Source: a virus
IMG/VR virus record: IMGVR_UViG_3300025012_000185
Location: 1-39,155 of that record
Direction: 5' to 3' (one strand)
Length of the DNA stretch: 39,155 nt
Each line of letters begins with the position of its first letter. The first letter of the stretch is position 1. Below, one piece after another: positions 14,001 to 25,886 of the stretch. The notes beneath the pieces were generated by a model. That model did not search any database. It saw only the letters and a program-made list of their open reading frames with translations, and was not told the origin of the DNA. The position numbers were made by a program, and so were the translations under genes.

Positions 14001-16482
14001 CGTCGAGATGGTGACGGCGCTGGCCCCGCCGAACATGCCCGTCTGGAAGAACCATCTCATCATCAACGTTCTCGATCAGGCAAAAGCCGGGAAGACCCTC
14101 GACGAGGCTCTTCGGAACGTTCACGATCCCAAGAGTGAATACTACGACCCGCGCATAACCCGCGACGCCGAAGTCGAGTTCCGTTCCATGGAGAACACGA
14201 ACAAGCTCATCGAAACGGTGAGAGAACAAGCGTACATGCAGGACGCCGGGTATGACGCGATCGGATTGGTGACGCATCCCGATTGGCATCCTGGCAATCC
14301 CGAGGGGGCGTTCTACCTGCCATCCCTGCGTTCTCAGGAGCGTACGCCGAGTGCGTTTTCCAAGATCATGGCGTCCGTCCTGCGGAAAACTGGTGGTGGA
14401 GGGATCCCGACGAAAGCCGAGCAGGCGCACCAGAAGCAGCGGGAAGACGACATGCACGTTGTCCCGTACAAGTCACCTGGAGTAGAGGGTGGTTCACCTG
14501 GACCCGAGGGGATAGCGAAGAGAACTTTCCTCCGGAAGGCAGACGCCGATGCGTTCAGGGCGCAACTCAAGGCGAAGGGGGTCGACTCCGGCTACATCCC
14601 CCCGCGCCCGTTCCCTGTCCGCATGGCGGAGATGACGCTCAGGGAGCGCCCCGCCGAATGGCTGGCTCGCGGGTTCATCGAAAGCGAGGGGCTTCGGACC
14701 AAGGCTGTCGTGCTCACGGCGTTCGCAAAGGCGGCCAAGGAAGACTACACGGTTGCGAGAGACCGGGTTCTCGGCGACATGGCCGGCGAAGATCCGATGA
14801 TTGCCGAACCGGCGACCGCGGGCCTGTGGAAAAGCAAGTATGTCCCTGTCAAGGAAGCGATCCCGATGGCGGAGGGACTCTGGGATACGAACATCGACAT
14901 GAAGGAGCTGTCCCGGCACCTGATCCGGAAGGACCTCGCCGAGACGCTTCAGGGGGCATGGTCCCCGAAATCGCCGTTCGAGTCGTTCGTCAACATGGGG
15001 GGGGTCGAAGGATTCCTGAAGAAGGGTGTCACGGCGTGGTATTTGCCGCGCCACCCGAAGCAGGTGCTCGTAGAGAACGCGCTCCAGACGTTCGGGGACG
15101 GTGGTTTCCCGATGCTCTATGCGTACCAGAAGGAAGTCCCTGGCCTGTCATACGCACTGGTGCAGACGATGAAGGGCAAGGTCCCCAACGGGAAGAGCCT
15201 CGGAGCGCAGATGCTCCGGGCGCTGCACCTACGCGATGCTGGCGGGAAATGGACTGACGGAAAAGCCACCTTCCCGAAGGGGCAGAAGTGGCTGGAGGCA
15301 GGGATCGACGAGCAGATCGTCAAACTGCTTCTCATCGCGGAGGATGCCGGGTTCCACCGTTCGACGTTTGTCGGGGCGCAGCTTGGCGGGACGAAGCGTA
15401 TCCATGGTGGCGCTGGCGGCGGGCGGCTTGGGGAAATCGGCGGGTTCGAGCGGACGTTTGTGGACGCAGCCAAAGAGAAGGTCGGTCGCCTCCCCGGGGC
15501 TGAGAAAGTCTTCGATCTCGCCAGCAACCTGGAGTTGGCTTACCACGCGGAAGACTTCTTCGCGAAAGTGCATGCGCTGAAGTACCACATGGAGCATGGG
15601 GTGTCCGAAGCGGAGGCTATCGCGCGGGCGAAAGAATTCTACATGGATTTTGCCGACATTCCGGACGGGGCGAGGAGCGGTGTGGCGAAGATGGTGCCGT
15701 TCCTGCCGTCGTTGTACTACAACTGGCAGCGGATCTTTGCCGCGCATACGTGGCATTTTGGGAAAAAGCACCAGCAGCAGTTTCAGATCCGCATGGGGCT
15801 GCTCGCCGCCGGGGCGCTGGGGATCCCGGCAGCGATGCGGCAGGCGTTCTTCTCGGACGAGGAGAAGCGAAAGCTCGGGCGCTTCAAGCCTGGCTGGTTC
15901 GAAGTCCCGATCCCGATCCCCGGCTCGGACGGAAAGTATCTGACCTTCGACCTTGGGAAGTTCATCCCAATGTCGGAGTTGTCGAACCTGTTCCAGAAAC
16001 CGCGAGGCGGTTGGGTCGATCTTCCGAAACAGACCGCACGGAACCTGACGCCGATGTGGACGCAGTTCCCGCAGGCGCTGTTCACGGGCAAGGATCGATG
16101 GGGCTCTGATCTGTACTCCCCGGAAACGGCCGGGATGACGAAGGCGCAAATCCTCGCGAAGGAAGCCGCGAAGAACTACCTGCCGGCGATGCTGGGGTCG
16201 TACACGCTGGGGGCTTACGACAACGCGGTCAAGGACGCGAAGCTCCGGAAGCCATGGGCGGCGCAGTTGGCCCCGATACTCCCGAGTCGCGTGGTGAGCA
16301 AAGAGGTCCATCCCAAGATGGAGAAGAGTCTTCGAAAGCGCGAGATCCGGGGGAGTCAGGCGGCCAAGGGCCGCGCAAGAACAGAGGCCGCCAAGGAGCG
16401 ACAGGACCGGGAGACGCGAGCGCTACAGAAGGCGTACTACCGTTACCTTTCCGGACGTGACGACGAGGAAGAGGAGGAGTGA
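11074..16482 (+). CDS. giant (1802-residue) internal virion / polyvalent-type protein
   Basis: The largest gene of the window. The N-terminal 280 residues are helical with small-residue-rich stretches (SASGLGEMAQRSTL, GAGATEYLSHIAGG). About residues 285-450 are a long Lys/Glu/Gln coiled coil, then a poly-Pro linker encoded by C10 and C8 runs. Residues 530-710 are a compact helical domain (LARMTEGELVDAYQRAKAAD, DQYNRFFGIGLRDADNVEVL). A Pro/Gly-rich linker spans about 713-808, overprinted by another frame. The large C-terminal region includes VAKMVPFLPSLYYNWQRIFA, a pattern I associate with phage ejection or polyvalent proteins, and ends in an acidic DDEEEEE tail. Size, location at the end of the virion block and the helical character fit a T7 gp16-like ejected protein. 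No transglycosylase motif was found. The stop overlaps the next ATG. Confidence 0.68.
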   Translation: MADPILLFQEYKATNDPEVKRRLAEWMRANKGTVRGKAFDDLLAGMGKDQIGKTEGPTLKSRMTEGAGPTMPTAESMREGTKSVFGRMAADYALEPYASAASGLGEMAQRSTLPRQVGKFLSQQGDIAREQAEAIRGEPLPGMVPELAYQAVSGLGAMPAIHAKFQPLTSVATKALGKGLPASMAGAGATEYLSHIAGGQSDEDAVLAGAKAASMLGQVGAAAPLSPLRRAGTVALGQGGETLATGGSLAEAAAAAGIGAGFTVDGGQGGSGFKDAMRPEAAEKTAQKERFASLEKERVRQQKEAEQAAKEAEEQRQEAVKESLVGDVVTKLRGVPREVDPQQVQTVLEQHVAKTMGENGLPVTPEAVGEVLRRSIKAKEDADAVANHIEAERTKAEEKARKIAEREQKAAEKEAQKQQKLAEKMAPEPPDPAQVAAEKGHKVAQAAKASVPAKSRIKSATRGKGTKVAQLGARAANGDPEAAATLAKSTDPEIRAAVEEVTAPPPLPEGMVPPVEAPPEGGMNARPVEAGAEILARMTEGELVDAYQRAKAADDGLLVEVFGEDGAKAYRAARRKSESPFSAAADPEVKRADALIVEMESRLSEDQYNRFFGIGLRDADNVEVLKTYVDAHRSVAVGRTAAETGDELRYLVTRLDPSDPWSPEAVTLRETMRVAAEQGQDPNQIWQAALRGSAARFGEDADFMLRRFMRGENARPVEADSGSPPGGPNAVGGPRPGGPLGEPGPGVGPGGRGMGPEATVAGALPEAARPPGVEGPPQVGPEPRGVPELPEALREQPLPDIPKGVGAAAKAVGAEDAARINKHIDPEGLLNPTKKGIPSQQKAENYATMIRAVWNKPEARDLEIRATAETDYVPRLYRKSDGKLLSKAEENAIWEAGDPEAPSPSRPVPDNRKTIMNQWVVPLTRKLMRLSMPDGVRQHLRDFVASYEAQTGEAQSYLKQLLKDRAEDMGFKKGDIVEMVTALAPPNMPVWKNHLIINVLDQAKAGKTLDEALRNVHDPKSEYYDPRITRDAEVEFRSMENTNKLIETVREQAYMQDAGYDAIGLVTHPDWHPGNPEGAFYLPSLRSQERTPSAFSKIMASVLRKTGGGGIPTKAEQAHQKQREDDMHVVPYKSPGVEGGSPGPEGIAKRTFLRKADADAFRAQLKAKGVDSGYIPPRPFPVRMAEMTLRERPAEWLARGFIESEGLRTKAVVLTAFAKAAKEDYTVARDRVLGDMAGEDPMIAEPATAGLWKSKYVPVKEAIPMAEGLWDTNIDMKELSRHLIRKDLAETLQGAWSPKSPFESFVNMGGVEGFLKKGVTAWYLPRHPKQVLVENALQTFGDGGFPMLYAYQKEVPGLSYALVQTMKGKVPNGKSLGAQMLRALHLRDAGGKWTDGKATFPKGQKWLEAGIDEQIVKLLLIAEDAGFHRSTFVGAQLGGTKRIHGGAGGGRLGEIGGFERTFVDAAKEKVGRLPGAEKVFDLASNLELAYHAEDFFAKVHALKYHMEHGVSEAEAIARAKEFYMDFADIPDGARSGVAKMVPFLPSLYYNWQRIFAAHTWHFGKKHQQQFQIRMGLLAAGALGIPAAMRQAFFSDEEKRKLGRFKPGWFEVPIPIPGSDGKYLTFDLGKFIPMSELSNLFQKPRGGWVDLPKQTARNLTPMWTQFPQALFTGKDRWGSDLYSPETAGMTKAQILAKEAAKNYLPAMLGSYTLGAYDNAVKDAKLRKPWAAQLAPILPSRVVSKEVHPKMEKSLRKREIRGSQAAKGRARTEAAKERQDRETRALQKAYYRYLSGRDDEEEEE
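12642..12664 (+). repeat. 23-bp direct repeat, copy 1
   Basis: The 23-base sequence beginning GAATGCTCGACCAG is found again, identically, at 13,209-13,231. Here it follows AGGAGG (12,633-12,638) at proper spacing from the +1-frame ATG at 12,644. That frame stops after 14 codons (TGA 12,686-12,688). In the main frame both copies encode NARPVEA. Confidence 0.85.
13209..13231 (+). repeat. 23-bp direct repeat, copy 2
   Basis: An identical copy of 12,642-12,664. Here the +1-frame ATG (13,211) opens a 99-codon nested reading frame. GAGGTG lies immediately upstream. Confidence 0.85.
13211..13510 (+). CDS. overprinted 99-residue ORF nested in the giant virion gene (+1 frame)
   Basis: In the +1 frame of the 1802-residue gene, ATG 13,211 to TAG 13,508-13,510 encodes a natural-looking helical basic protein: MLDQSKPIAVAHRVAQ, then LALGVPLESLDPES, SPKQLARRVSKVRRKLGQ and AYLNYLKRYGN. 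In this stretch the main frame encodes only Pro/Gly-rich low complexity (GGPRPGGPLGEPGPGVGPGG) with much lower G/C at third positions. The nested frame keeps the strongly G/C third positions of the rest of the genome. The ribosome site is weak (GAGGTG close to the ATG). A GTG at 13,205 in the same frame is another possible start. Either this is a true overlapping gene or the main frame is translated fortuitously through it. The function is unknown. Confidence 0.5.
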   Translation: MLDQSKPIAVAHRVAQMQLAALALGVPLESLDPESAQAAEAWGLKPPSQVLSPKQLARRVSKVRRKLGQNPEAYLNYLKRYGNSPSPTSRKGSAQRPRR

Positions 16483-16841
16483 TGGTTGGCGAGAACGGGT
16501 GGGAGAAGTGGGGAACGCTGGTGCTCTCGAAGCTCGACGAGCATTCCGCCGAGATGAAAGAAACCCGGCAGGATCTCGCTGAGATCAGAGAGACTCTTGC
16601 GGTAAACGGGATGAACGAACAGAACCACTCGAAGATGCTGGGCGACCGCGTCAGCCGTGTGGAACGGGCCGTCACCGACGTGACATCCCGTGTGCAGTCA
16701 ACCGAGATTCAGATCGACCGTGTCAAGGTCGGGACGGGTGCCGTGAAGACCGCCGTCGTGGCAACGGCTTCCATCGTCGGGACTCTGGCCGCCGCGTGGG
16801 CGTGGGTCGAGAGTCACCTTTCCATTAGTCGGCTGAAGTAG
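16482..16841 (+). CDS. coiled-coil plus C-terminal membrane helix protein (XhlA/holin-like)
   Basis: A 119-residue protein. The start is taken at ATG 16,482, overlapping the preceding stop (TGATG), with GAGGAGG in the preceding poly-Glu codons. Residues 15-85 form heptad-like helices (LDEHSAEMKETRQDLAEIRE, RVSRVERAVTDVTSRVQSTE). A single hydrophobic segment follows near the C-terminus (VVATASIVGTLAAAWAWV) with a short basic end. A soluble coiled coil followed by a C-terminal transmembrane helix is the layout of XhlA-type lysis-associated membrane proteins. It opens the lysis block, which supports a holin or holin-partner role, but this is not diagnostic. Confidence 0.62.
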   Translation: MVGENGWEKWGTLVLSKLDEHSAEMKETRQDLAEIRETLAVNGMNEQNHSKMLGDRVSRVERAVTDVTSRVQSTEIQIDRVKVGTGAVKTAVVATASIVGTLAAAWAWVESHLSISRLK

Positions 16842-16849
16842 GAGGGATC

Positions 16850-17308
16850 ATGGCGCAGCCAAACAAGAAGAGAAGGATCATAGCGCCGCCAAACAAGAAC
16901 GTTGGTGGGGCGACGGCGCAGGATGCCGTCCGAGAAGAGTTGGAAGCTGCCGGCGCCAGCTACGGGAAAGGTGCGACCAGCGCCATGTATGACCCGACGC
17001 ATGGCGGGGCGCAATCGGGAGGCCCCGAAGTCGGGGCGGCTGGGTTGGAAGAGGACATGGCGGATTACAAGGACCAGAGCCCCGATCTCCTCATCAACCT
17101 GAAGCTGAAGATCGATCACCTGACCAAGCAGATTCCGCGGACTCGCAGCATGGAGAAGAAGAAGGCTCTTCGGGCAGAGAGGAACCAACTGATGACCGAG
17201 ATCGAGAATGTTCGGATGGGCACCCGCGGGAAACCTCCGGCCGACTACAAGTACAAGACTTCCCCGTGGAAAGCTCGGGAGAAGTGGGAAGACTCGGATC
17301 TGCTCTGA
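16850..17308 (+). CDS. hypothetical protein in lysis block
   Basis: A 152-residue protein with a strong ribosome site (AGGAGGG) before ATG 16,850. The N-terminus is basic and unstructured (MAQPNKKRRIIAPPNKN). The middle is Gly/Ala-rich. The C-terminal half is a charged helix (LLINLKLKIDHLTKQI, MEKKKALRAERNQLMTEIEN) then KYKTSPWKAREKWEDSDLL. It overlaps the endolysin start by one base (TGATG). There is no signal peptide, membrane segment or enzyme motif. I do not recognise the family. Confidence 0.62.
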   Translation: MAQPNKKRRIIAPPNKNVGGATAQDAVREELEAAGASYGKGATSAMYDPTHGGAQSGGPEVGAAGLEEDMADYKDQSPDLLINLKLKIDHLTKQIPRTRSMEKKKALRAERNQLMTEIENVRMGTRGKPPADYKYKTSPWKAREKWEDSDLL

Positions 17309-17718
17309 TGGAACATCTCCGGTTCAAAAGCGAGCGCGAAGAGCGCGAGTGGGCGATGGAAGGGAAGCTCTGCCCGAAGCTCATCGTGGTGCTCGCCGAT
17401 CTCGTGGAGCGGCGCTGGACGCTCCTCAAGCAGGAGAGCGTCGTCACTTGCATCTTTCGGTCGTTTGCGGAGAATCGTGGGATTGGCGGGACGAGCAACA
17501 CTCACTGCGAATGGCGAGCCGTGGACATCCGAGTGGATCCGACGCAGTTGTTCGTCGAGATGGCGATCCGGGTGGCGCTGAACGAGAGGTGGCCGACGGG
17601 TGTGGCGAAGATGCCGAGGATTCCGCCGTTGGATCATGGGACCGCGCTTCACTACCATGTTCAGGTGACGAGAGACGAAGGTCGTGCTAGACTTTCCACA
17701 AGAAAGGAGACCACATGA
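17308..17718 (+). CDS. M15-like zinc peptidase, putative endolysin
   Basis: A 136-residue protein starting at the ATG that overlaps the preceding stop. It contains the arrangement of Zn-dependent D-Ala-D-Ala carboxypeptidase/endopeptidases of the M15 family. S63-x-x-H66 is followed by R-A-V-D73-I, and then by LHYH117VQV, giving His, Asp, His as candidate zinc ligands. Such enzymes cut the peptide part of peptidoglycan. The length fits single-domain phage endolysins. Flanking genes encode membrane proteins and lipoproteins, so the cluster reads as a lysis cassette. There is no signal peptide, so export would need the holin. Unusual: Cys67-Glu68 stand where the family often has small residues or Gly. 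Overlap with the next gene is ATGA. Confidence 0.75.
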   Translation: MEHLRFKSEREEREWAMEGKLCPKLIVVLADLVERRWTLLKQESVVTCIFRSFAENRGIGGTSNTHCEWRAVDIRVDPTQLFVEMAIRVALNERWPTGVAKMPRIPPLDHGTALHYHVQVTRDEGRARLSTRKETT

Positions 17719-18131
17719 AGAGAACCCTCATCGCCCTGTTGCTGGTCCTTGGCGCCTTCGCCATGGCGTGCAACACCAAAGACTCCCCGACCGGACCTTC
17801 CGACAAGGCCCGGATGTACCTCGACGTTTACGTCTACTATGAGGCCGGCATCAACATCGGCAAGGGTTACCAGGGCGCCCGGGTCACGGTTCGCGACGAT
17901 GCCCAGAACTTCGTCTATCAGTGTACGACGGGAGCTGATGGGTACTGCCCGAGGAAGGAGCTTTTCGCCGAGCTGGGGCCGCTGAACATCTACTCTCAGC
18001 CTGCGGTAATCGACACCTTCATGGGGACGTACAGCGCTTCCGGCGTGTTGGCATCATGGGTCTCGGACCCGGCTCACAACCACGACAAGATCTACACCTT
18101 GCGGATTGCGCAGCCGCCGGCCAAGAGCTGA
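17715..18131 (+). CDS. secreted lipoprotein
   Basis: A 138-residue protein with AAGGAG upstream and an ATGA overlap with the endolysin gene. The N-terminus MKRTLIALLLVLGAFAMAC is a lipoprotein signal peptide with cleavage before Cys19. The mature part is rich in strands and aromatics (RMYLDVYVYYEAGI, GARVTVRDDAQNFVYQCTTG, YTLRIAQPP) and may be a small Ig-like domain. In the lysis block it could act in the outer membrane during lysis or block superinfection. It lacks the Pro-rich pattern of typical o-spanins. The function is inferred from context only. Confidence 0.72.
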   Translation: MKRTLIALLLVLGAFAMACNTKDSPTGPSDKARMYLDVYVYYEAGINIGKGYQGARVTVRDDAQNFVYQCTTGADGYCPRKELFAELGPLNIYSQPAVIDTFMGTYSASGVLASWVSDPAHNHDKIYTLRIAQPPAKS

Positions 18132-18133
18132 CC

Positions 18134-18475
18134 ATGAAGGGCCTCGTGATTCTTCCGCTGCTGTTTCTCGTGGGCTGTGCCGCGATGAACCCGTGGGCAT
18201 CGCATCCCGTCTCGGAGCTTGGGAAGGATGTCAACATCGTGGCGGCCCGAATCCAGACCTTGCAGGCCGAGGTCGCGGCGAGTCACATGCTCTCGCCCCC
18301 GAGGAAAGAGAACCTGGGCAAGACGCTGGACATCGCCAAGGCCGAGGCCGGGGAGGCGTTGGATCTCCTGACGATGGCCGGGACGGCAGACCCGAATGTC
18401 GAGAAGATCAAGACTCTCATCAAGTCGAGCAACTACCGCTGCGATGCTGTCCGCGCGGTGCTCGACAACAACTAA
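18134..18475 (+). CDS. small helical lipoprotein, lysis-associated candidate
   Basis: A 113-residue protein starting 2 bases after the preceding stop. Signal peptide MKGLVILPLLFLVGC has a good lipobox (LVGC, Cys15). The mature part is helical (VNIVAARIQTLQAEVAAS, GKTLDIAKAEAGEALDLL) and ends with a Cys-containing segment (NYRCDAVRAVLDNN). A helical periplasmic lipoprotein next to an endolysin and a holin-like gene fits an outer-membrane spanin-type role. No matching inner-membrane spanin partner is evident apart from the coiled-coil membrane protein at 16,482. Confidence 0.7.
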   Translation: MKGLVILPLLFLVGCAAMNPWASHPVSELGKDVNIVAARIQTLQAEVAASHMLSPPRKENLGKTLDIAKAEAGEALDLLTMAGTADPNVEKIKTLIKSSNYRCDAVRAVLDNN

Positions 18476-18487
18476 GGAGGTGGTAGG

Positions 18488-18772
18488 GTGCAGGTGCCTG
18501 TAGACATCCTCAAGTTGGCGGCTCTGGTGTATGCCGGAGTCCAAGCGGTGAAGAAGTCCCCCTGGTTGGAGGGCCTTCTCGAAAAGTTCGGGGGACCGTG
18601 GGTAGGGATTGCGCTTGCCATCATCGCCGGTTGTGTTGGCGGATTCGTCGAGTACGGCGGAGATGGAGTGATCACCTGGAATGAGGCGGGCAACATCGTC
18701 GCTGCGATTCTCGCAGCCATGGGGACCCACATCGGGCTTTCCAAGGTGGAGACGGCGACTCAGAAGAGATAA
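18488..18772 (+). CDS. holin-like membrane protein
   Basis: A 94-residue protein with a GTG start behind an excellent ribosome site (AAGGAGGTGG, 18,475-18,484). Three hydrophobic segments are visible: ILKLAALVYAGVQAV, WVGIALAIIAGCVGGFV and IVAAILAAMGTHIGL. A short basic C-terminus (KVETATQKR) follows. Small size, several membrane spans and position at the end of the lysis block just before a terminator make a holin likely. It may pair with the coiled-coil membrane protein at 16,482. Confidence 0.7.
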   Translation: MQVPVDILKLAALVYAGVQAVKKSPWLEGLLEKFGGPWVGIALAIIAGCVGGFVEYGGDGVITWNEAGNIVAAILAAMGTHIGLSKVETATQKR

Positions 18773-18797
18773 GTAACCCGTCCTCTCGTAGTCCAGG

Positions 18798-18827
18798 ACG
18801 GCCCCCTCCGGGGGGCCGTTTTGTTTT
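18798..18827 (+). terminator. intrinsic terminator of the late operon
   Basis: A perfect 9-bp stem ACGGCCCCC / GGGGGCCGT with a TCCG loop is followed by a T-rich tract (TTTGTTTT). It lies 26 bases after the holin-like stop and should end late transcription, so the next gene probably has its own promoter or depends on read-through. Confidence 0.88.
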
Positions 18828-18837
18828 ACACTTGGTG

Positions 18838-18939
18838 GTGCCCCGGGAGGATCGTTCTTTCAACAGGTCTCTCGTTCAAGAGGAGTCTCGTTAGCCTGGA
18901 TCCCCACGACCTTGGCCGCGCGCCGGCCTCCCGGGGCAC
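18838..18939 (+). promoter_or_regulatory. structured 5' leader of the GroES-like gene
   Basis: A perfect 13-bp inverted repeat, GTGCCCCGGGAGG (18,838-18,850) and CCTCCCGGGGCAC (18,927-18,939), encloses about 76 bases. Those bases have further short pairings (CTCT/AGAG, CAGG/CCTG) and two TCTCGTT repeats. The ribosome site GAGGAGGAG begins directly after the right arm, before ATG 18,954. In RNA this would be a closed leader next to the ribosome site, as in cis-regulatory elements. Its activity is inference. Confidence 0.5.
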
Positions 18940-18953
18940 GAGGAGGAGAGCGC

Positions 18954-19526
18954 ATGAAGTGGAAGGCAGAAGAGTTGGAACCGTTGAATGGGAAGCTGAT
19001 CGTGAAGCGGGATCCACCTCCCGAAGAGCTTGGCGGGATCGCGGTGCCGAAGATCGCGGTTGTTCGTCGGCCGTGCAAGGACTGTCATGGGGGTGGGTGT
19101 TTCATCCGTCCGATCTACGAGGAGGATGGGATCTGGATCAGCCGCCACGAGGAGATCCGCTGTGAACGCTGCGACGGGAGGGGGTACCGGGAGGCTGTCT
19201 ACGACCCGAGGCCGAAGGTGACGCAGTGGACGGCTACGGTCGTTTCGGTAGGCCCGGGTAAGCCGCGACGGAAGTTCCGGCTTTCGGACGCCCGGACCCT
19301 TTGGTGGAAGCCTGGACGAGAGACGCTCCCTGTCTCGGCTGGCGACCGCGTCGTCGTGGCTCCTTGGTCAGGAGTAACCGCGGGAGGTTGTGAGCTTGGT
19401 GACGGGTACTGGTTGATTCAGAGCTGGGAAGTGCTAGCAGTTCTGGGTCGGGTTGCCACGGTGCCCCCGCTGCCGGCGGGTTGTCTTCCAGAACCAGCCA
19501 CGCACCCACGGGCGTGCCTGATTTAG
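18954..19526 (+). CDS. GroES (Cpn10)-like co-chaperonin with DnaJ-type zinc insertion
   Basis: A 190-residue protein with AGGAGGAG before ATG 18,954. The GroES pattern is split. Residues 8-32 (LEPLNGKLIVKRDPPPEELG, then GIAVP) match the first strand and the mobile-loop approach. Residues 90-105 (TQWTATVVSVGPGKPR), 127-140 (VSAGDRVVVAPWSG) and 152-164 (YWLIQSWEVLAVL) match the core and last strand. Between them, at about 40-80, is an insert with C41xxC44xGGG and C70xxC73xGRG, like half of a DnaJ cysteine-rich domain. GroES caps GroEL and helps fold proteins; phages such as T4 bring their own for capsid folding. About 27 residues beyond the core (from about 164) run antisense to the RusA-like gene. 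The fold call is strong; the role of the insert is unknown. Confidence 0.75.
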   Translation: MKWKAEELEPLNGKLIVKRDPPPEELGGIAVPKIAVVRRPCKDCHGGGCFIRPIYEEDGIWISRHEEIRCERCDGRGYREAVYDPRPKVTQWTATVVSVGPGKPRRKFRLSDARTLWWKPGRETLPVSAGDRVVVAPWSGVTAGGCELGDGYWLIQSWEVLAVLGRVATVPPLPAGCLPEPATHPRACLI

Positions 19527-19848
19527 CCGGGGTCCAGACGCAGGATTTGATCTGGGCGTCGTCGGCGAGGATGTTGGATTTTTCGAGAAGGTGGCAGATG
19601 GCGTCGAGGATCCCCGGGAGATCCCGGCGCCGCTTATCTCCGGTGGCATAGACGACGGCTAGCGAGACGTCGCACGTGACGAGGGCCACGTCGCGATGGC
19701 CACCGAGCTGGAGCCGGATCGCCGTGAGCGCAACGTCTCGCCAGGCGGTGAATCGTTTCTTGGGAAAGCGGAGTCCTGTTCTGGTGACGATGACGGCGTT
19801 TTTCCCGCTGGGCAGTTGTCCCGGAAGGAAGAGGCTAGCGAGAATCAC
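19234..19848 (-). CDS. rusA: RusA-like Holliday junction resolvase
   Basis: A 204-residue protein; the GTG start at 19,848 has GGAGGAGGAG just upstream, encoded by the end of the preceding gene. The N-terminus LFLPGQLPSGKNAVIVTRTG and the region DKRRRDLPGILDAICHLLEK, then LADDAQIK, follow the RusA layout with Asp76, Asp82 and Asp96/97 as candidate metal ligands. The usual D-x-D-N is altered to DLPG. RusA enzymes cut four-way DNA junctions made in replication and recombination. The last about 60 residues are Arg/Pro/Ser-rich and lie antisense to the GroES-like core, so the true domain probably ends near residue 125. It is the last gene of the early operon. Confidence 0.75.
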   Translation of the reverse strand: MILASLFLPGQLPSGKNAVIVTRTGLRFPKKRFTAWRDVALTAIRLQLGGHRDVALVTCDVSLAVVYATGDKRRRDLPGILDAICHLLEKSNILADDAQIKSCVWTPAKSGTPVGAWLVLEDNPPAAGAPWQPDPELLALPSSESTSTRHQAHNLPRLLLTKEPRRRGRQPRQGASLVQASTKGSGRPKAGTSVAAYPGLPKRP

Positions 19849-20159
19849 GACTCCTCCTCCAGGCGGTCCCTGACGCTGTCCCTGACGCTGTCCCAGAAGC
19901 TGTCCCTGACGCTGTCCCAGACGCGGGCATCGACGCTGGCCCAGACGCTGTCCCCGACGCTGGCCCAGGCGCTGGCCCAGGCGCTGTTCCTGACGCTGTT
20001 CCTGACGCTGGCCCAGACGCGGGCATCGACGCTGTACCAGACGCTGGCCGTGACGCTGGCCCAGACGCGGTCACTGGCGCTGCCCCTGACGCTGGTCCTG
20101 CCGCCGGCCCCGACGCGATCCTTGACGCGGGCCTTGACGCACGGTCCCGGGTCGATCAC
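19845..20159 (-). CDS. tetrapeptide-repeat protein, array gene 5
   Basis: A 104-residue protein, GTG start. It opens with MIDPGPCVKARVKDRV and is then almost entirely four-residue repeats x-x-[S/R]-V (WASV, WYSV, DARV, RNSV, GDSV, WDSV, RDSV), ending RDRLEEES. About 22 repeats are visible, and Val, sometimes Ala or Phe, recurs every fourth residue. The start overlaps the previous gene's stop (GTGA), and its own stop overlaps the RusA start the same way. The Glu codons at its end form the ribosome site for RusA. This minus-strand frame is chosen because it alone preserves start, ribosome site, stop and overlap in all copies. The family is not recognised and the function is unknown. Confidence 0.72.
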   Translation of the reverse strand: MIDPGPCVKARVKDRVGAGGRTSVRGSASDRVWASVTASVWYSVDARVWASVRNSVRNSAWASAWASVGDSVWASVDARVWDSVRDSFWDSVRDSVRDRLEEES

Positions 20160-20422
20160 GGCTCCTCCTCCAAGCTGGCCCCGACGCTGTCCCAGACGCT
20201 GTCCACGACGCGGGACCAGACTCTGGCCCCGACGCGGTCCCCGACGCCGGCCGTGACGCTGTCCCAGACGCGGGCATCGGCGCTGGCCCAGACGCTGTAC
20301 CAGACGCTGTGCCGGACGCCGGCCGTGACGCGGTCCCAGCCGCTGGTCCAGACGCTGGTCACGGCGCTGGTCCTGACGCGATCCTTGACGCGGGCCTTGA
20401 CGCACGGTCCCGGGTCGATCAT
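20156..20422 (-). CDS. tetrapeptide-repeat protein, array gene 4
   Basis: An 88-residue protein, ATG start overlapping the previous stop (ATGA). N-terminus MIDPGPCVKARVKDRV is identical to that of array gene 5 over 16 residues. Repeats such as WTSG, RHSV, WYSV, WASA, DARV, WDSV, GDRV and GARV follow, ending GASLEEEP. The Pro end is the only departure from the LEEES terminus of the others. The codons for LEEE carry GGAGGAGGAG, the ribosome site of array gene 5. The shared N-terminus and variable repeat body point to duplication followed by divergence of the repeats. Confidence 0.72.
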   Translation of the reverse strand: MIDPGPCVKARVKDRVRTSAVTSVWTSGWDRVTAGVRHSVWYSVWASADARVWDSVTAGVGDRVGARVWSRVVDSVWDSVGASLEEEP

Positions 20423-20613
20423 GACTCCTCCTCCAAGCTGGCCCAGACGCGGTCCCCGACGCCGAACCAGACGCGGTCCCAGACGCTGTTCCTGACGCTG
20501 GCCCAGACGCGGGCATCGGCGCCGAACCAGACGCGGTCCCAGACGCTGGCCCCGACGCGGTCACTGGCGCCGCCCCTGACGCTGGCCAAGACACACTCCC
20601 CGGGGTCGATCAT
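20419..20613 (-). CDS. tetrapeptide-repeat protein, array gene 3
   Basis: A 64-residue protein, ATG at 20,613 overlapping the previous stop by ATGA, with GGAGGAGGAG upstream. It begins MIDPGECVLASVRGGA, with Glu where other copies have Pro, continues with SDRV, GASV, WDRV, WFGA, DARV, WASV, RNSV and GDRV, and ends WASLEEES. WDRVWFG occurs twice, showing internal duplication. No membrane segment, signal or enzyme motif. Function unknown. Confidence 0.72.
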   Translation of the reverse strand: MIDPGECVLASVRGGASDRVGASVWDRVWFGADARVWASVRNSVWDRVWFGVGDRVWASLEEES

Positions 20614-20792
20614 GACTCCTCCTCCAAGCTGGCCCAGAGGCTGTCCCAGACGCTGGTCCAGACGCTGCGCCAGACGCGATCCCTGACGCTGAACCAGACG
20701 CCGAACCCGACGCTGGTCCTGCCGCCGGCCCTGACGCGGTCCCTGACGCTGGCCGTGACGCGGGCCTTGACGCACGGTCCCGGGTCGATCAC
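20610..20792 (-). CDS. tetrapeptide-repeat protein, array gene 2
   Basis: A 60-residue protein, GTG start overlapping the previous stop (GTGA). It begins MIDPGPCVKARVTASV and includes RAGGRTSV, an irregular unit also present near the start of array gene 5. It continues GFGV, WFSV, RDRV, WRSV, WTSV, WDSL and ends WASLEEES. It is the shortest member. The shared GGRTSV irregularity shows that genes 2 and 5 are closely related even though they are not adjacent. Confidence 0.72.
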   Translation of the reverse strand: MIDPGPCVKARVTASVRDRVRAGGRTSVGFGVWFSVRDRVWRSVWTSVWDSLWASLEEES

Positions 20793-20983
20793 GACTCCTC
20801 CTCCAGGCTGTCAATGACGCTGTGCCTGACGCGGGTCCCGACGCCGTACCTGACGCTGGCCGCGACGCGGTCCCCGACGCGGTCCCAGACGCTGGCCTCG
20901 ACGCTGGCCTCGACGCTGTCCCAGACGCTGTACCTGACGCTGTTCCCGACACTGTCCCCGACCCACGGCCCGGGATCGATCAT
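20789..20983 (-). CDS. tetrapeptide-repeat protein, array gene 1
   Basis: A 64-residue protein, first of the contiguous array. Its ATG overlaps the stop of the small membrane gene upstream (ATGA). It begins MIDPGPWVGDSVGNSV, with Trp in place of Cys at position 7, as in the distant copy at 24,274. It continues RYSV, WDSV, EASV twice, WDRV, GDRV, AASV, RHSV and ends IDSLEEES. The upstream ribosome site is GGGGATGA-like and weaker than the GGAGGAGGAG between array members. Function unknown. Confidence 0.7.
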   Translation of the reverse strand: MIDPGPWVGDSVGNSVRYSVWDSVEASVEASVWDRVGDRVAASVRYGVGTRVRHSVIDSLEEES

Positions 20984-21099
20984 TCATCCCCCTCGTCGGA
21001 TAACCATCCGTCGATCTGCAACAGCACATACCCGATGAGGCAGGATGCCGCAAGGATCTTGAGTACCTGCCAGTCCTCGGGCGTCATCGCGGGACTCAT
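20980..21099 (-). CDS. 39-residue single-span membrane protein
   Basis: Begins MSPAMTPEDWQ at an ATG overlapping the previous stop (ATGA). It contains one hydrophobic helix (VLKILAASCLIGYVLLQI) and an acidic C-terminus (DGWLSDEGDE). The first 12 bases of its coding sequence are identical to those of the gene upstream (both MSPA). It is too short for usual gene finders, but the overlaps on both sides support it. Small phage membrane proteins of this type may act on the host envelope; no specific role can be given. Confidence 0.6.
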   Translation of the reverse strand: MSPAMTPEDWQVLKILAASCLIGYVLLQIDGWLSDEGDE

Positions 21100-21203
21100 C
21101 GCCAGCGTCGCCCAATCGTCACGAATGCCGCCACGGCTCCGAGGAAAAACCCGACGGCAAGGCCAACGAGCGCCCCCCACATGCCAACCACCGCGGGACT
21201 CAT
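21096..21203 (-). CDS. 35-residue single-span membrane protein
   Basis: ATG 21,203 with AGGTGAG five bases upstream; begins MSPAVVGMWGAL. One Gly/Ala/Phe-rich hydrophobic span (LVGLAVGFFLGAVAAFVTI) is followed by a basic end (GRRWR), predicting N-out or N-in insertion with the basic end in the cytoplasm. Its stop overlaps the next start (ATGA). A seven-codon ORF (MNTQVSK, 21,200-21,223) links it to the gene upstream by ATGA overlaps on both sides. Function unknown. Confidence 0.6.
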   Translation of the reverse strand: MSPAVVGMWGALVGLAVGFFLGAVAAFVTIGRRWR

Positions 21204-21219
21204 TTGCTCACCTGTGTGT

Positions 21220-21594
21220 TCATTCCCATAGGTGCGTACCACTTCGCAACTCGGCCCTCGCTCGGCACGGCTCTTTCTCCGCGCTCGGCTGAATCATCTC
21301 GCACTTCCGCATCTGCGCCACCGCCTGCTTCACCGCCTCGCGGATGATCTCGTCACGAACCAAGGGGCTTATCGAACACGGCGTGTGTGTCCAGGTCAGA
21401 GAAGGCGCTCCGGGAGGCAATTCGCCCACCTGAACAAATGGCGCCTGGACCACGTCCGTCGCGATACGAAGGTCCTCGAACTCGGCGGCGATGATCTTGG
21501 CGTGCTTGGTGAGGTATTCATCAAGCATGGGGTATTCATCACACGTGAAGAGTCGCCTCGCCGCCGCCAGGGCCCGTTCCTCGATAGTTCTCAT
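21220..21594 (-). CDS. early hypothetical protein
   Basis: A 124-residue protein. The start ATG 21,594 has GGGAGGAC seven bases upstream; a longer in-frame reading from 21,915 overlaps the preceding gene and lacks support. It is helical at the N-terminus (TIEERALAAARRLF, EYLTKHAKIIAAEFEDLRIA). A segment ELPPGAPSLTWTHTP follows, then a helix RDEIIREAVKQAVAQMRK. It has scattered Cys but no clear metal pair. Family not recognised. Confidence 0.6.
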   Translation of the reverse strand: MRTIEERALAAARRLFTCDEYPMLDEYLTKHAKIIAAEFEDLRIATDVVQAPFVQVGELPPGAPSLTWTHTPCSISPLVRDEIIREAVKQAVAQMRKCEMIQPSAEKEPCRARAELRSGTHLWE

Positions 21595-21608
21595 CGATGT
21601 CCTCCCAA

Positions 21609-21893
21609 CTAGTTCTCCACGTCCAACACGACTCCTGCAACCCAGCCAACACCCTTGCAGGAAGCGCACGGACCCCATTTCCGTGCGCTCTGCGTGTACG
21701 CAACCATCTGCTCCTTCGCGATCTCCAACGCAATCGTCAGCATCCGCGCGGATTCCTCCATGCACTTCTCGGTCCGCGCCTCTGCAAATTGCGCCGGGTT
21801 CAACCAGAGTGACCCGCAGTCGAACAACACTCCCGTCGCCGGCTGAATTGTCCGCTGTCCCCGCGAACACGAAGGGCACGTTCTTGGCGTCAT
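21609..21893 (-). CDS. small zinc-ribbon-like protein
   Basis: A 94-residue protein. ATG 21,893 overlaps the preceding stop (ATGA) with AAGGTGG upstream. It starts MTPRTCPSCSRGQ (CxxC) and ends near CASCKGVGW (CxxCxGxG), so two Cys pairs flank a helical middle (RMLTIALEIAKEQMVAYTQS). Codon third positions favour this frame over the two others. The second pair resembles the DnaJ-type half motif seen in the GroES-like protein. It may be a metal-binding adaptor. Function unknown. Confidence 0.6.
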   Translation of the reverse strand: MTPRTCPSCSRGQRTIQPATGVLFDCGSLWLNPAQFAEARTEKCMEESARMLTIALEIAKEQMVAYTQSARKWGPCASCKGVGWVAGVVLDVEN

Positions 21894-22210
21894 TCGGTAC
21901 CACCTTCCGCGGCATCCGTTGCTTGTTCGAACGTCACTGGGCGCTCCGTTGGTCGGACACAAGCGACAAGCTCCCACACGCGAGCTGCTGCGCCAGGAAA
22001 CGGAGGGTTCCGTTCCCGTAATCCAAGCCGACCGCGAGCCACAATCCATGATTCACTCATCCCGGTCGCTTCGTTCACCTCCTCGCCGCGGATACGGACG
22101 AAAACTTGGGCGCCGTCTCCTTCGTCCGAGTCGCCAACGTTCTCGGCCATCAGCTCACACACGTAGACCGTTTTCCCTTTGCGAAACGAAATTGTCGACT
22201 GGTGCTTCAT
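21890..22210 (-). CDS. early hypothetical protein
   Basis: A 106-residue protein with AAGGAG upstream of ATG 22,210. It begins MKHQSTISFRKGKTVYVCEL and has a mixed, partly beta-like sequence (DGAQVFVRIRGEEVN, ESWIVARGRLG), then a Pro/Ala-rich part and an acidic end (DAAEGGTE). It overlaps the next gene by ATGA. No recognisable motif. Confidence 0.6.
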   Translation of the reverse strand: MKHQSTISFRKGKTVYVCELMAENVGDSDEGDGAQVFVRIRGEEVNEATGMSESWIVARGRLGLRERNPPFPGAAARVWELVACVRPTERPVTFEQATDAAEGGTE

Positions 22211-22219
22211 CGCCGCTCC

Positions 22220-22393
22220 TTATCCCCGTTCTCCTTCCGTGAAACGCTGCCATTCCCGAACCGTCCGGTAGATCCGCTCGAACCCCGGCTCCTTGTCGAG
22301 CCGGAACAGCTCGACCAGCTCCGCGAGCCGCCGAAGAAGCTGAAGCTCCTTCTGCACGCACGCCTCACAGTGACAGCGCCGGTCGTGACTCAT
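22220..22393 (-). CDS. 57-residue small protein with Cys/His N-terminus
   Basis: ATG 22,393 overlaps the preceding stop (ATGA). It begins MSHDRRCHCEACVQKELQ, with HxCxxC that could bind zinc. A helix follows (LQLLRRLAELVELFRLDK), then GFERIYRTVREWQRFTEG. It ends with TAA at 22,220-22,222 just before the ribosome site of the next gene. It is below the usual length cut-off but well supported by its overlap and G/C third positions. Function unknown. Confidence 0.62.
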   Translation of the reverse strand: MSHDRRCHCEACVQKELQLLRRLAELVELFRLDKEPGFERIYRTVREWQRFTEGERG

Positions 22394-22626
22394 GACTTCA
22401 CCTTCGCGGCTTCGATCTCCTGCTTCCGTTTCACCATCATCCGCTGAACATCCATCGGGACCTTACCCGTGTGAGGCGCGATGTTGAGCGAGATGATCTT
22501 CGACGTGAACGTGTGGTCGTCCACGATCCCGGGACAAACGAAGAGCGACTGAATGTGCTTCGCCGCGTCCCCCTGGGTCGGCGCATCCATGAAGAGTTCG
22601 AGCTTCAACGCAACGACAAGTCGCAT
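22390..22626 (-). CDS. early hypothetical protein
   Basis: A 78-residue protein. ATG 22,626 follows AAGGAGG by six bases and overlaps the preceding stop by one base (TGATG). It starts with a hydrophobic strand-like segment (MRLVVALKLELF). A middle part follows (DDHTFTSKIISLNIAPHTGK), then a charged helix (MDVQRMMVKRKQEIEAAKVK). Family not recognised. Confidence 0.6.
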   Translation of the reverse strand: MRLVVALKLELFMDAPTQGDAAKHIQSLFVCPGIVDDHTFTSKIISLNIAPHTGKVPMDVQRMMVKRKQEIEAAKVKS

Positions 22627-22835
22627 CACCACCCTCCTTCGCGGGCAAGGTCATGAACCTCTTGCGCAATGGTCATGGAGTCCATCGGCCTCGTCGCCGC
22701 CTCCGCCATCGCGACGGCGAAGAGGGCGAGGCGAATGATCTCGGACACCTCTGCTTGGCCGAGTATCACTTTCCTTGGAGCCCATTCGTAGCAGGAGTAC
22801 TCTTCCGCAATCTCCCTCACGCTGCGCTCGGTCAT
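22626..22835 (-). CDS. early hypothetical protein
   Basis: A 69-residue protein. The start is taken at ATG 22,835 (GGAGG five bases upstream, ATGA overlap with the Lar-like gene) rather than the GTG 21 bases further up. It is helical throughout (SVREIAEEYSCYEW, SEIIRLALFAVAMAEAATRP, MTIAQEVHDLAREGGW). No motif recognised. Confidence 0.6.
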   Translation of the reverse strand: MTERSVREIAEEYSCYEWAPRKVILGQAEVSEIIRLALFAVAMAEAATRPMDSMTIAQEVHDLAREGGW

Positions 22836-23074
22836 TCTGGCCTCCGGTTCCACCACGCCCTGATTTCGGCACGCGGTCCGCTGTGAGGCGTGGCGGCGCC
22901 GCAGAACACGCCAACGTCGCCCCAGTCATCGACCACGCTCGAGCACTCGACGACGCTCGAGCACTCGACGACGTAGGTTGTGGTCCCGTACATCGCGACT
23001 GGCGAGTATCGCGCCTTCCGGCCGCAGAAGGGGCAGGGTAGCAGCTTCTTCGGCTTCGGCTTCGGCTTCGTCAT
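22832..23074 (-). CDS. Lar-like zinc-ribbon protein
   Basis: An 80-residue protein with GAGGTGA upstream of ATG 23,074. KKLLPCPFCGRKARYS near the N-terminus, a second Cys region (VEC and FCGAATP) and a C-terminal AEIRAWWNRR match the Lar-type layout 'lkPCPFCG ... C..C ... AieaWNrR'. Lar-type proteins of the Rac prophage relieve type I restriction. For phage relatives the activity is usually untested, so anti-restriction here is a family-based guess. An 18-bp tandem duplication (22,935-22,952 and 22,953-22,970) repeats VECSSV and changes spacing within the ribbon. The N-terminus has a TKPKPKPKK basic tail. Confidence 0.68.
   Translation of the reverse strand: MTKPKPKPKKLLPCPFCGRKARYSPVAMYGTTTYVVECSSVVECSSVVDDWGDVGVFCGAATPHSGPRAEIRAWWNRRPE
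22935..22970 (-). repeat. 18-bp perfect tandem duplication in Lar-like gene
   Basis: Two exact 18-base copies (22,935-22,952 and 22,953-22,970) are in frame and duplicate six residues (VECSSV) around a candidate zinc-binding Cys. Confidence 0.9.
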
Positions 23075-23095
23075 GGCTTCACCTCGCGGTTCATG

Positions 23096-23473
23096 TCATT
23101 CCTTTCCGTCCAACGCGGCATAGAGTTTTACGATCAGCCCCTCCGTCTCGCCCTTGCGGACGGCGATGGCGGCAGCCTCGATTCGCCGCAGGCGCCGTAG
23201 TTCCGTGAGCAGCGCGGGCGCCGCGTTGCGGAGGGCGACGATGAAGACGGCGTCTTCGTCCGCGCCGCCTCCCATTTCGCTCGCGTGGATGTGGTCTGTC
23301 GTGACGTCGCGGATCTTCCCGTCGTCGCCGGCGCCGAACGCTCCAACCACCCAATCCTCTCCGAATGGGCGATCGTCCGGCCCCTTTCGATCGGGGACGT
23401 TGACTCGCCACGGTCCCGGCGTCGCCTCCGCTTCGAGATTCGCCAGCGCGTCGAGGTCAACGATGGCGTTCAC
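23096..23473 (-). CDS. early phage protein (Ea22-like layout)
   Basis: A 125-residue protein. The start is taken at GTG 23,473, overlapping the preceding stop (GTGA); an ATG at 23,518 in frame is possible but lies deeper in the upstream gene and lacks a ribosome site. It reads VDLDALANLEAEATPGPWRV at the start, a pattern common in phage early proteins with a variable middle. A central loop with IRDVTTDHIHASEMGGG follows, then DAVFIVALRNAAPALLTELR. Such proteins are frequent in early operons of temperate and lytic phages but have no established function. Confidence 0.65.
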   Translation of the reverse strand: MNAIVDLDALANLEAEATPGPWRVNVPDRKGPDDRPFGEDWVVGAFGAGDDGKIRDVTTDHIHASEMGGGADEDAVFIVALRNAAPALLTELRRLRRIEAAAIAVRKGETEGLIVKLYAALDGKE

Positions 23474-23754
23474 CAGACACCCAACATGCGCTGAAGCGCG
23501 AGGCTGCACGATTGCCATGAGTATTGTCCGTATTTCGTGAGTAGTCCGAGTCCTATCAGCCGCTCGCGAACGGCATCGCGTGCAGCGCGCAGTTCCGCCT
23601 CCATCGCTCGCAGTCGTTCGAGTTCGGCGAACGTTTCGGCCACAATGCTCGCGTCACCGGGCTGCATGGTCGACAGTTCGAGAGCGGCGTTCGCGAGATG
23701 CTTACGCGCTCGCAATAGTCGTGACGAACTCGATCTTTCCCCCTTCGCCTTCAT
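23470..23754 (-). CDS. helical hypothetical protein
   Basis: A 94-residue protein starting at ATG 23,754, which overlaps the preceding stop (ATGA). A basic Ser-rich start (MKAKGERSSSSR) leads into helices (RARKHLANAALELSTMQ, FAELERLRAMEAELRAARDA), with an aromatic C-terminus (YGQYSWQSCSLALQRMLGVW). Coiled-coil character is likely. Function unknown. Confidence 0.6.
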   Translation of the reverse strand: MKAKGERSSSSRLLRARKHLANAALELSTMQPGDASIVAETFAELERLRAMEAELRAARDAVRERLIGLGLLTKYGQYSWQSCSLALQRMLGVW

Positions 23755-24083
23755 CGCTTTTTCCCCCTTCTCTGCTTTTTCTTGTAGCCGCTGATCCATG
23801 CAGCCGCGTACGCCAGACACCGGATACACCGCGTCGCCGACTTGCCATCCAGCGCGGCCCCGCAACGGCCACAACGGTGAGCGGACATGTAGTCCTGTGA
23901 TCTGGCACGACGCCGGTCCCTGTTCTTCGCAAGACACAAGAGGCACCGCAGGCGCTCGGAAGACTCCTTCTGCTTGCCACACTCGTAGCAACGCCCAGAT
24001 TCCACATACCTGCGTTTTCGGGAATACACCGCACACGTTGGGCAGGAAGCGCGATGCCCGCATGGGAACTTCAAGTCGCTCAT
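23751..24083 (-). CDS. multi-CxxC zinc-finger protein
   Basis: A 110-residue basic protein with ATGA overlap on both sides. It holds five CxxC pairs: CPTC, CYEC, CLLC, CGRC and CIRC, with CGH near the start and a Lys/Arg tail (KKKQRRGKKR). Paired CxxC knuckles separated by basic segments suggest two or more zinc ribbons binding nucleic acid. The layout resembles the N-terminal zinc ribbons that precede HNH domains in some phage proteins, but no HNH motif is present. Early operon position fits a regulator or nucleic-acid-binding protein. Confidence 0.68.
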   Translation of the reverse strand: MSDLKFPCGHRASCPTCAVYSRKRRYVESGRCYECGKQKESSERLRCLLCLAKNRDRRRARSQDYMSAHRCGRCGAALDGKSATRCIRCLAYAAAWISGYKKKQRRGKKR

Positions 24084-24277
24084 CTCATTTCGATCCCTTC
24101 CACCAGGTCGACGAGTTCCCTGGCTTTTCGCGTGGCTTCTTCCGGCGAAAGGCCCTCGTCGATGTACATCGCGTATGCCCGGTCGAAGAGCGGTTCCGGA
24201 GTCAACGTCGCGGCGATGACTTCGGCGGGCGTGTTGTTCGGAATCTGCGGCGGCGGCGGAATGAACATCTCGATCAT
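24080..24277 (-). CDS. small hypothetical protein
   Basis: A 65-residue protein. ATG 24,277 overlaps the stop of the upstream repeat gene (ATGA) with GGAGGAAG upstream. A Pro-rich start (MIEMFIPPPPQIPNN) precedes helices (DRAYAMYIDEGLSPEEATRK, ARELVDLVEGIEMR). The segment 'eGlspeeAtrkA' is common in small bacterial and phage helical proteins. The first bases (ATGATCGA) match those of the array genes, so this gene begins at the same type of junction. Function unknown. Confidence 0.62.
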   Translation of the reverse strand: MIEMFIPPPPQIPNNTPAEVIAATLTPEPLFDRAYAMYIDEGLSPEEATRKARELVDLVEGIEMR

Positions 24278-24492
24278 GACTCTTCCTCCAGGCTGTTCCA
24301 GACGCGGTCCACGACGTTGGCCCTGACGCTGGTCCAGACGCGGTTCCTGACGCGGTCCGCGACGGGTGCCCAGACGCTGGCCCAGACGCGGTCCGCGGCG
24401 CTGGCCCCGACGCTGGTCAAGACGCTGTCCCTGACGCGGCCCCCGACCCACGGTCCCGGATAGAGCTTCCTAGAATGCAGGCTCGTCGTCAT
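24274..24492 (-). CDS. tetrapeptide-repeat protein, detached paralogue
   Basis: A 72-residue protein with GAGGAG upstream of ATG 24,492, overlapping the end of the replication gene by 23 bases. After a unique start (MTTSLHSRKLY) it joins the family at PGPWVGGRV and continues with RDSV, LTSV, GASA, ADRV, WASV, WAPV, RNRV, WTSV, RANV and VDRV, ending WNSLEEES. It is the sixth member of the family, 3.3 kb upstream of the other five in the same operon. Shared PGPW with array gene 1 and the LEEES end show common origin. Function unknown. Confidence 0.7.
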   Translation of the reverse strand: MTTSLHSRKLYPGPWVGGRVRDSVLTSVGASAADRVWASVWAPVADRVRNRVWTSVRANVVDRVWNSLEEES

Positions 24493-25297: not shown

Positions 25298-25523
25298 GTC
25301 ACTACCCCCGAAAATGGTGCCAACCCCCCGCCGGGTGTGACGAGCCGAAGCCAAAGGCTGGGCTCCCGGCAGGGGGCCGACTCACTAGCTGTTCATGTGC
25401 GGAGGCAACTCCGACTCGTCACGCCCCAAAGATACGGCTCGGGTTCTACGATGTCAACGCGCCAACGTGGCACACTTGACGCAAGTTTGCCAAAACGGCA
25501 CACCGGGTGTACCCTCGTTCCTC
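25298..25523. promoter_or_regulatory. divergent early/late control region
   Basis: 226 bases separate the leftward early operon from the rightward late genes. Two 15-base direct repeats, at 25,461-25,475 and 25,489-25,503, match at 12 of 15 positions and share GGCACAC. A TTGACG (25,476-25,481) lies between them, a possible -35 box, but no good -10 is visible. GCAAGTTTGC between the repeats is a small dyad. At 25,400-25,413 CGGAG-GCAA-CTCCG can form a hairpin. The arrangement fits a repressed promoter, but no site is certain. Confidence 0.45.
25461..25503. promoter_or_regulatory. paired 15-bp direct repeats, candidate operator
   Basis: GCCAACGTGGCACAC and GCCAAAACGGCACAC lie 28 bases apart, start to start, and flank TTGACG. 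The spacing is near three helical turns, which would place two bound proteins on the same face. No repressor gene is recognised; the multi-CxxC protein is one candidate. Confidence 0.4.
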
Positions 25524-25886
25524 GTGAGCAACGTCCGCCTGCCTATAGCGGCTCCGCCAGGCGACCCCGCGCCACCGGACACGAACCCGGGAGCGGCCCT
25601 CCCAGCCATCGGAGAACTCATCGGGGACGACGACCGCGAGCCTCTTTTTCAGGAGGCGATGACGGCTCTTCATCAGGCCCTCACCGAGAACGATGTCAAC
25701 AAAGCCCGCATCGCCACGATGCTTGTTCAGGCCATCCGCAAGGCCGGGAAGCAGGACGACGGCGTCAAGATCAAAACCGACGAGCGTTTCGTCGACTCCG
25801 TCGCGTTGATGGTGAAATCCGAGTTCGCCATCCCATCGCAACTCGCCGAGTTCGAGGAAGCCCTCGTTGAACCAAGCGATAGCTGA
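25524..25886 (+). CDS. putative small terminase subunit (TerS)
   Basis: A 120-residue protein, GTG start at 25,524; no clear ribosome site. An ATG at 25,395 is in frame, but the extension overlaps the control region and looks unlike protein. The N-terminus is Pro-rich (PIAAPPGDPAPPDTNPG), followed by helices (REPLFQEAMTALHQALTEND, NKARIATMLVQAIRKAGKQD) and a C-terminal helix (AIPSQLAEFEEALVEPSDS). It directly precedes and overlaps the large terminase by 20 bases, the usual place of the small subunit, which recognises the DNA to be packaged. There is no clear helix-turn-helix, so the call rests mainly on position. Confidence 0.55.
   Translation: MSNVRLPIAAPPGDPAPPDTNPGAALPAIGELIGDDDREPLFQEAMTALHQALTENDVNKARIATMLVQAIRKAGKQDDGVKIKTDERFVDSVALMVKSEFAIPSQLAEFEEALVEPSDS

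Follow-up and report, generated by a model that had tools for sequence, protein, structure and literature searches.

Genomic Context of the Locus

The window, that is, the whole stretch of DNA that was analyzed, is the 39,155-base virus record IMGVR_UViG_3300025012_000185. Its gene products include the large terminase subunit, a portal protein of the SU10 type (PF23899), tail proteins, and internal-virion proteins, and the virus is therefore a podovirus-like phage; the major head protein is encoded at 32590–33561. The window also carries an intact gene for a 190-residue protein in which two GroES-like halves flank an insert with two CxxCxGxG motifs (Table 1). For its candidate zinc site, this protein is referred to here as the zinc-insert GroES.

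Besides the M15-peptidase-like and holin-like genes listed in Table 1, two small frames that appear lipoprotein-like from their translations precede the zinc-insert GroES gene. The holin-like protein is weakly similar to the gene preceding GroES in MW202601 (pairwise E 2.9e-4). Four terminator-like hairpins were found in positions 18400–19900, against 0.9 expected, and a promoter search near the zinc-insert GroES gene gave no match. On the opposite strand, a RusA-like resolvase frame (19234–19848) is convergent with this gene, and the 3' ends of the two overlap by 293 bases. Judging from the translations, their recognizable domains merely abut, the GroES part extending to near 19454 and the RusA-like part to near 19479.

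Table 1. Features at and around the zinc-insert GroES gene. Positions are those of the window unless preceded by another label.
Feature	Position	Strand	Basis
CDS of zinc-insert GroES, ATG to stop, intact, 190 aa	18954..19526	+	translation; Cpn10 match once insert removed
Putative Shine-Dalgarno sequence GAGGAGGAG, strong, 5 bases 5' of ATG	18940..18948	+	read from sequence; function inferred
GroES N-terminal half, residues 7-32, ELEPLNGKLIVKR...GGIAVP	18972..19049	+	alignments A1, A4
Mobile-loop GroEL-binding motif GGIAVP, residues 27-32	19032..19049	+	aligned with GGIVLP/GGIVIP of GroES
Insert, about residues 36-90	19059..19223	+	deletion scan; segment length
First CxxCxGxG motif CKDCHGGG, residues 41-48	19074..19097	+	translation, pattern
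Second CxxCxGxG motif CERCDGRG, residues 70-77	19161..19184	+	translation, pattern
GroES C-terminal half, residues 92-167	19227..19454	+	hhalign to 45 GroES rows
Extended "roof" segment, about residues 103-124	19260..19325	+	21 residues vs 1-10 in 45 rows
C-terminal tail, residues 168-190, without GroES counterpart; antisense to RusA-like ORF tail	19455..19523	+	
Small hydrophobic holin-like protein, just 5' of zinc-insert GroES	18488..18772	+	holin-like from translation
Terminator-like hairpin between lysis genes and zinc-insert GroES gene	18802..18815	+	
M15-peptidase-like gene, 5' of zinc-insert GroES	17266-17718		20.1 bits, below Pfam cut-off of 23.2
Junction where about 10.3 kb of IMGVR_UViG_3300025030_000200 is absent from the window	20658..20750	.	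contig comparison
12-base-unit tandem repeat array at junction	19866-20962		
Canonical GroES, 100 aa, just after DnaB-like helicase	L003:2645-2947	-	Cpn10 101.1 bits

GroES Identity of the 190-Residue Protein

The intact protein has no match to the Pfam Cpn10 model (PF00166), even at an E-value of 10. Once residues 38–89 are removed, it matches Cpn10 at 29.2 bits (E 9.5e-07; cut-off 21.1), and a harder-trimmed form scores 19.9 bits, slightly below the cut-off. The shortened protein also matches PHROG 3188 (co-chaperonin GroES; E 1.3e-4 over residues 7–111) and NCBIfam GroES models (E 4.8e-6 and weaker, residues 7–112, below their curated cut-offs), and both sets of matches span essentially the full length of GroES. 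Without any deletion, hhalign against 45 GroES rows aligns residues 92–167 (E 2e-5, probability 77%). Taken together, the deletion, HMM, and hhalign matches make the GroES identity of both halves flanking the insert well supported. The first-pass annotation had recognized GroES strands on either side of an insertion and had suggested a profile search with the zinc segment removed and retained; the strands are borne out, and the search matched Cpn10 with the segment removed and not with it retained. Cpn10 models in standard use thus overlook co-chaperonins that are interrupted by an insert, and such proteins may be under-counted.

Among individual GroES features, the protein has a PL near its N-terminus, the GGIxxP motif of the mobile loop, and the VGPG and GDxV turns. 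Counting against a co-chaperonin, the near-invariant D of the GroES "DRV" is replaced by G.

A structure was predicted with AlphaFold from an input alignment of 46 rows of GroES sequences, by which the barrel was partly put in by hand. The model has a mean pLDDT of 71.8 and a pTM of 0.57. The 10-residue blocks with the GroES strands average 86–94 in pLDDT and the insert 50–58; modeled alone, the insert has an unreliable pLDDT of 54. When the model was searched against the PDB (Foldseek), Cpn10/GroES ranked top (E 1.7e-4). With VIA-align, it superimposes on Thermus Cpn10 (1wnr) with a Z of 12.0 over 84 residues at 2.1 Å, and on T4 gp31 (1g31) with a Z of 8.3 over 90 residues. The first-pass annotation had named a predicted fold lacking the GroES barrel as grounds for rejection; the barrel was obtained, in a test that is not independent since GroES rows were supplied. 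The model therefore supports the compatibility of the protein with a GroES beta-barrel, bearing an insert of low-confidence conformation, more than it proves such a fold. In a viral fold search, the top match was A0A6J5S188 (BFVD), a 141-residue "GroS" from an uncultured phage (E 6.1e-7), and its fold match to the zinc-insert GroES exceeds that of every ordinary GroES.

Position and Nature of the Insert

The insert was located by a deletion scan with a GroES HMM built from the 45 GroES rows, the zinc-insert protein being left out. The intact protein scores 7.9 bits with this model, and the best of the deletions tried, residues 36–90, raises the score to 14.5 bits. Among 23 sliding deletions of 56 residues, only 37–92 (13.0 bits), nearly the same cut as 36–90, and 31–86 (8.9 bits) beat the intact protein, and these two are the ones nearest the insert. 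Shuffled cores reach at most 2.6 bits among the 131 of 200 listed. The cysteines thus played no part in locating the insert. Between P32 and T93 in alignment A4 lie 60 residues, compared with 7–9 in all 45 other rows, which amounts to about 52 extra residues in the mobile loop. Since this extra length follows the proline of GGIxxP, the insert lies in the return (C-terminal) arm of the loop, with GGIAVP intact just before it and not within it. An insertion of roughly 45 residues at the mobile loop or the adjoining segment had been noted before; the location is confirmed and can be narrowed to this arm, while the length was near but somewhat short. The extended roof segment constitutes a second, smaller insertion.

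At the DNA level, a search for GG[IVL]..CxxCxGxG..CxxCxG hits the window a single time, and none of 100 shuffles contains the pattern. The CxxCxGGG and CxxCxGRG motifs that had been noted in the insert are indeed present (Table 1), and GC-rich third positions (0.79) continue through it in frame. The candidate zinc-site cysteines are C41, C44, C70, and C73, with a fifth cysteine, C49, close by. From two CxxCxGxG motifs, one zinc site would probably be formed. By comparison, the cysteine-rich domain of DnaJ has four such motifs and two zinc sites.

In Pfam, the insert matches DnaJ_CXXCXGXG (PF00684) best, at 20.2 bits (E 7e-4); this score is below the cut-off of 32.7, and the match spans only positions 1–29 of 65, about half of the domain. 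In a sequence search of the PDB, phage Q antiterminators took first place (E 0.10–0.15) and yeast Mas5 ranked fourth (E 1.7), all short of significance. CxxCxGxG knuckles are common to the insert, DnaJ (PF00684), and the Q antiterminator finger (4mo1, 7ubj), and two-knuckle fingers of this type are frequent among small phage proteins, as indicated by many unrelated pattern-scan matches. The insert is no closer to DnaJ than to the phage Q antiterminator fingers and, judging from its sequence, is most likely a one-zinc hairpin rather than a DnaJ domain. When the 190-residue protein was searched for a J domain in Pfam at E-values up to 10, only PF00684 and PF22859 appeared, both below cut-off. 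Therefore, the DnaJ-type module with Hsp40-like function that the first-pass annotation had envisaged is not upheld, given two motifs instead of four, 20.2 bits against a cut-off of 32.7, and no J domain.

A Second GroES in the Same Virus

A fuller contig, IMGVR_UViG_3300025030_000200, has 43,435 bases and the same sequence as the window over positions 10954–20749 and 20658–37516; it therefore represents the same virus and not an independent copy. The zinc-insert gene shows 0 differences in 573 bases between the two contigs. Relative to the window, contig coordinates are shifted by −7180 to the left of a junction (Table 1) and by +3125 to its right, and at this junction about 10.3 kb of the contig is absent from the window. 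Encoded in this extra part are a DnaB-like helicase (PHROG E 1.3e-84) and a PD-(D/E)XK nuclease, as well as the canonical GroES listed in Table 1, which was invisible to the first-pass annotation because the region is missing from the window. The extra part carries the same repeat arrays as the window, and its G+C content is 0.616, compared with 0.617 in window positions 25–39 kb. Its tetranucleotide distance is 0.209, compared with 0.269 for another window part and at least 0.256 for 112 other viral loci. The 10.3 kb was dropped from the window at the tandem array, either by assembly collapse or by a real deletion. Cpn60/GroEL was found in neither of the two records, the window and the fuller contig, in a search whose control detected it in 14 of 14.

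Comparison with Known Co-Chaperonins

The zinc-insert GroES has in common with bacterial and phage GroES (PF00166, PHROG 3188) the flanking barrel strands, PL, GGIxxP, VGPG, and GDxV. In contrast to them, it has about 52 more residues with two CxxCxGxG motifs, a roof about 12 residues longer, and a C-terminal tail of about 23 residues. T4 gp31 is a well-established GroES of phage origin, serving the capsid protein, with a mobile loop of 22 residues compared with 16 in GroES, and with the roof loops missing (PMC6318259). Both proteins are phage-encoded with a divergent GroES fold and an altered mobile loop; however, the zinc-insert protein has a far longer loop, zinc knuckles, and a roof that is extended instead of missing. 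Assignment to the gp31 type, which has no roof loop and a moderately longer mobile loop, was rejected, the roof comprising 21 residues compared with 1–10 in the GroES rows.

GroES with an added metal-binding element is also represented by Helicobacter pylori HspA; its metal site reportedly lies in the C-terminal tail (PMC5116745), as opposed to the mobile loop in the zinc-insert protein.

Two GroES genes per phage are already known. Phage CBB has two (PMC5259590). Among 10 phage records, all picked for carrying GroES, Cpn10 scored above cut-off twice in three: CBB, Stenotrophomonas phage RAS14, and Cellulophaga phage phi18:3. Phage phi18:3 (Pachyviridae per its record) encodes a short GroES, gp080, and one of 200 residues, gp096 (L429:41458-42060), which sits between lysis and terminase genes and is without the zinc motif. 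Cpn10 matches gp096 only at residues 116–198, and its extra length resembles a second, degenerate GroES-like unit. With seemingly two tandem GroES-like units, gp096 resembles chloroplast Cpn20. Two distant portal relatives of the window virus also have a long GroES. In MW202601 (L451:1402-1866), a 154-residue GroES whose mobile loop is longer and whose C-terminal half is altered is encoded directly 3' of a holin-like gene, and in BK063670 a 135-residue GroES is encoded near or before the terminase genes. Together with phi18:3, these examples make a variable late GroES a repeated neighbor of lysis or packaging genes.

Searches for Further Zinc-Insert GroES

A protein search of viral contigs for close relatives returned only IMGVR_UViG_3300025030_000200, the same virus. 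By tblastn, nothing convincing was obtained in 50,697 phage records, queried with the whole protein and with its parts, or in 72,556 plasmid records, queried with the intact protein. DNA pattern scans for GG-I..CxxCxG..CxxCxG yielded 115, 35, and 49 stretches in viral contigs and at least 119 in species genomes, with patterns that fix particular glycine codons, so that members differing in codons, spacing, or knuckles would escape these scans. When the pattern matches listed (305 loci, six of them from the window virus) were screened with GroES HMMs, the window virus alone stood out, at 16.3 bits, compared with at most 6.0 bits for any other locus. Among relatives chosen by terminase or portal, none of 11 (phi18:3 included) had a match to the zinc-insert protein, in a comparison that had no positive control, and Cpn10 was found in two of 10 records. 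Searches of open-licence papers brought up no GroES whose mobile loop carries a zinc insert. The first-pass annotation, which knew of no described protein with such a layout, is in line with these limited searches. In these searches, the candidate zinc element in the mobile loop of GroES was found in one virus only, and therefore conservation of the cysteines or of the loop cannot be shown.

Proposed Role and Alternatives

With some reserve, we favor the reading that the protein is a phage GroES co-chaperonin, probably late, that caps host GroEL for phage structural proteins and whose mobile loop is stapled by zinc. The zinc-insert GroES would form a GroES-like ring, and GGIAVP would grip host GroEL. 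The two CxxCxGxG knuckles would most likely bind one zinc ion, giving a rigid hairpin at the GroES-GroEL rim, which could either stiffen the loop or make further contacts, with the apical domain of GroEL or with a phage substrate. The hairpin might thereby give the protein an affinity or specificity different from that of the ordinary GroES of the virus. Late timing is suggested by the position beside the lysis cassette, while the ordinary copy would serve with the replication genes, and the chamber would be adjusted to phage proteins late in infection.

Assembly of the ring may not be straightforward. In engineered human Cpn10 with a replaced mobile loop, a clean heptamer needed special linkers (PMC5118791), and a bulky insert may therefore hamper the ring of the zinc-insert protein. 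In Arabidopsis, chloroplast Cpn10(1) is reported to function only as a hetero-oligomer with Cpn20 (PMC4242682), and rings mixed with the ordinary subunit are therefore possible. A more elaborate scheme has an early ordinary GroES, produced together with the replication genes, and a late GroES act on one GroEL; the grip of the late one would be switched by zinc or redox state through the metal hairpin, alone or in mixed rings, and the chamber would be re-tuned to capsid or tail proteins late in infection. Such a scheme strikes us as unlikely.

The grip of GroES on GroEL is set by the mobile loop, which otherwise varies only modestly in nature among the sequences compared. If the favored reading of a zinc-stapled co-chaperonin is true, the protein would provide a natural test of loop rigidity, beyond loop sequence, as a setter of the chaperonin cycle, and would bear on why some phages carry two co-chaperonins.

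Alternatively, the protein may keep the GroES fold and no longer serve GroEL. Its loop would then provide zinc-based docking, and the protein, as a ring or a monomer, would belong to the virion or act in lysis or regulation. The insert lies exactly in the GroEL-binding loop, an ordinary second GroES would free the zinc-insert copy to change its job, the gene adjoins lysis genes, and Campylobacter phage GroES matches were labeled "putative capsid and scaffold protein" by their depositors. However, GGIAVP is kept, before and not inside the insert, where its loss would be expected once the protein was freed from GroEL, and we regard such a change of function as rather unlikely, though deserving of weight.

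It is improbable that the insert is a neutral passenger, that is, a phage zinc-finger fragment recombined into the GroES gene of a protein that works as a plain GroES. Such an origin would fit the abundance of two-knuckle fingers in small phage proteins and a site that tolerates length change, as seen in the longer loop of the MW202601 GroES, but four correctly spaced cysteines and their GxG turns are intact, and third positions remain GC-rich, in frame, through the insert.

A true Hsp40/Hsp10 hybrid, with the insert binding unfolded substrate as the cysteine-rich region of DnaJ is thought to do, appears very improbable: no Pfam model matches the insert better than DnaJ_CXXCXGXG, but this match stays below the cut-off of 32.7, with two motifs rather than four, no J domain, and Q antiterminators ranking first among PDB matches, none of which is significant.

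Finally, MDR domains of the alcohol-dehydrogenase type have the same fold as GroES and often a structural zinc, and ADH_N weakly matches a trimmed form (15 bits, below the cut-off of 23.5), but we give next to no credence to such an identity, since Cpn10 outranks ADH_N, the structural match to Cpn10 is stronger (Z of 12.0 compared with at most 6.8 for dehydrogenases, VIA-align), and 190 residues are too few for a Rossmann domain, of which Pfam found no match in the protein.

Other Features of the Window

A protein of 1802 residues (window positions 11074–16482) has 0 matches at E 1e-5 among 50,697 phage records. Long imperfect arrays of 12-base units of the GTCCCTGACGCT type lie at 19866–20962 and 24295–24442, with more copies in L002 and L003. 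The GTCCCTGACGCT-type arrays are open on the minus strand, where they encode repeats of the type VWDSVWDRV.
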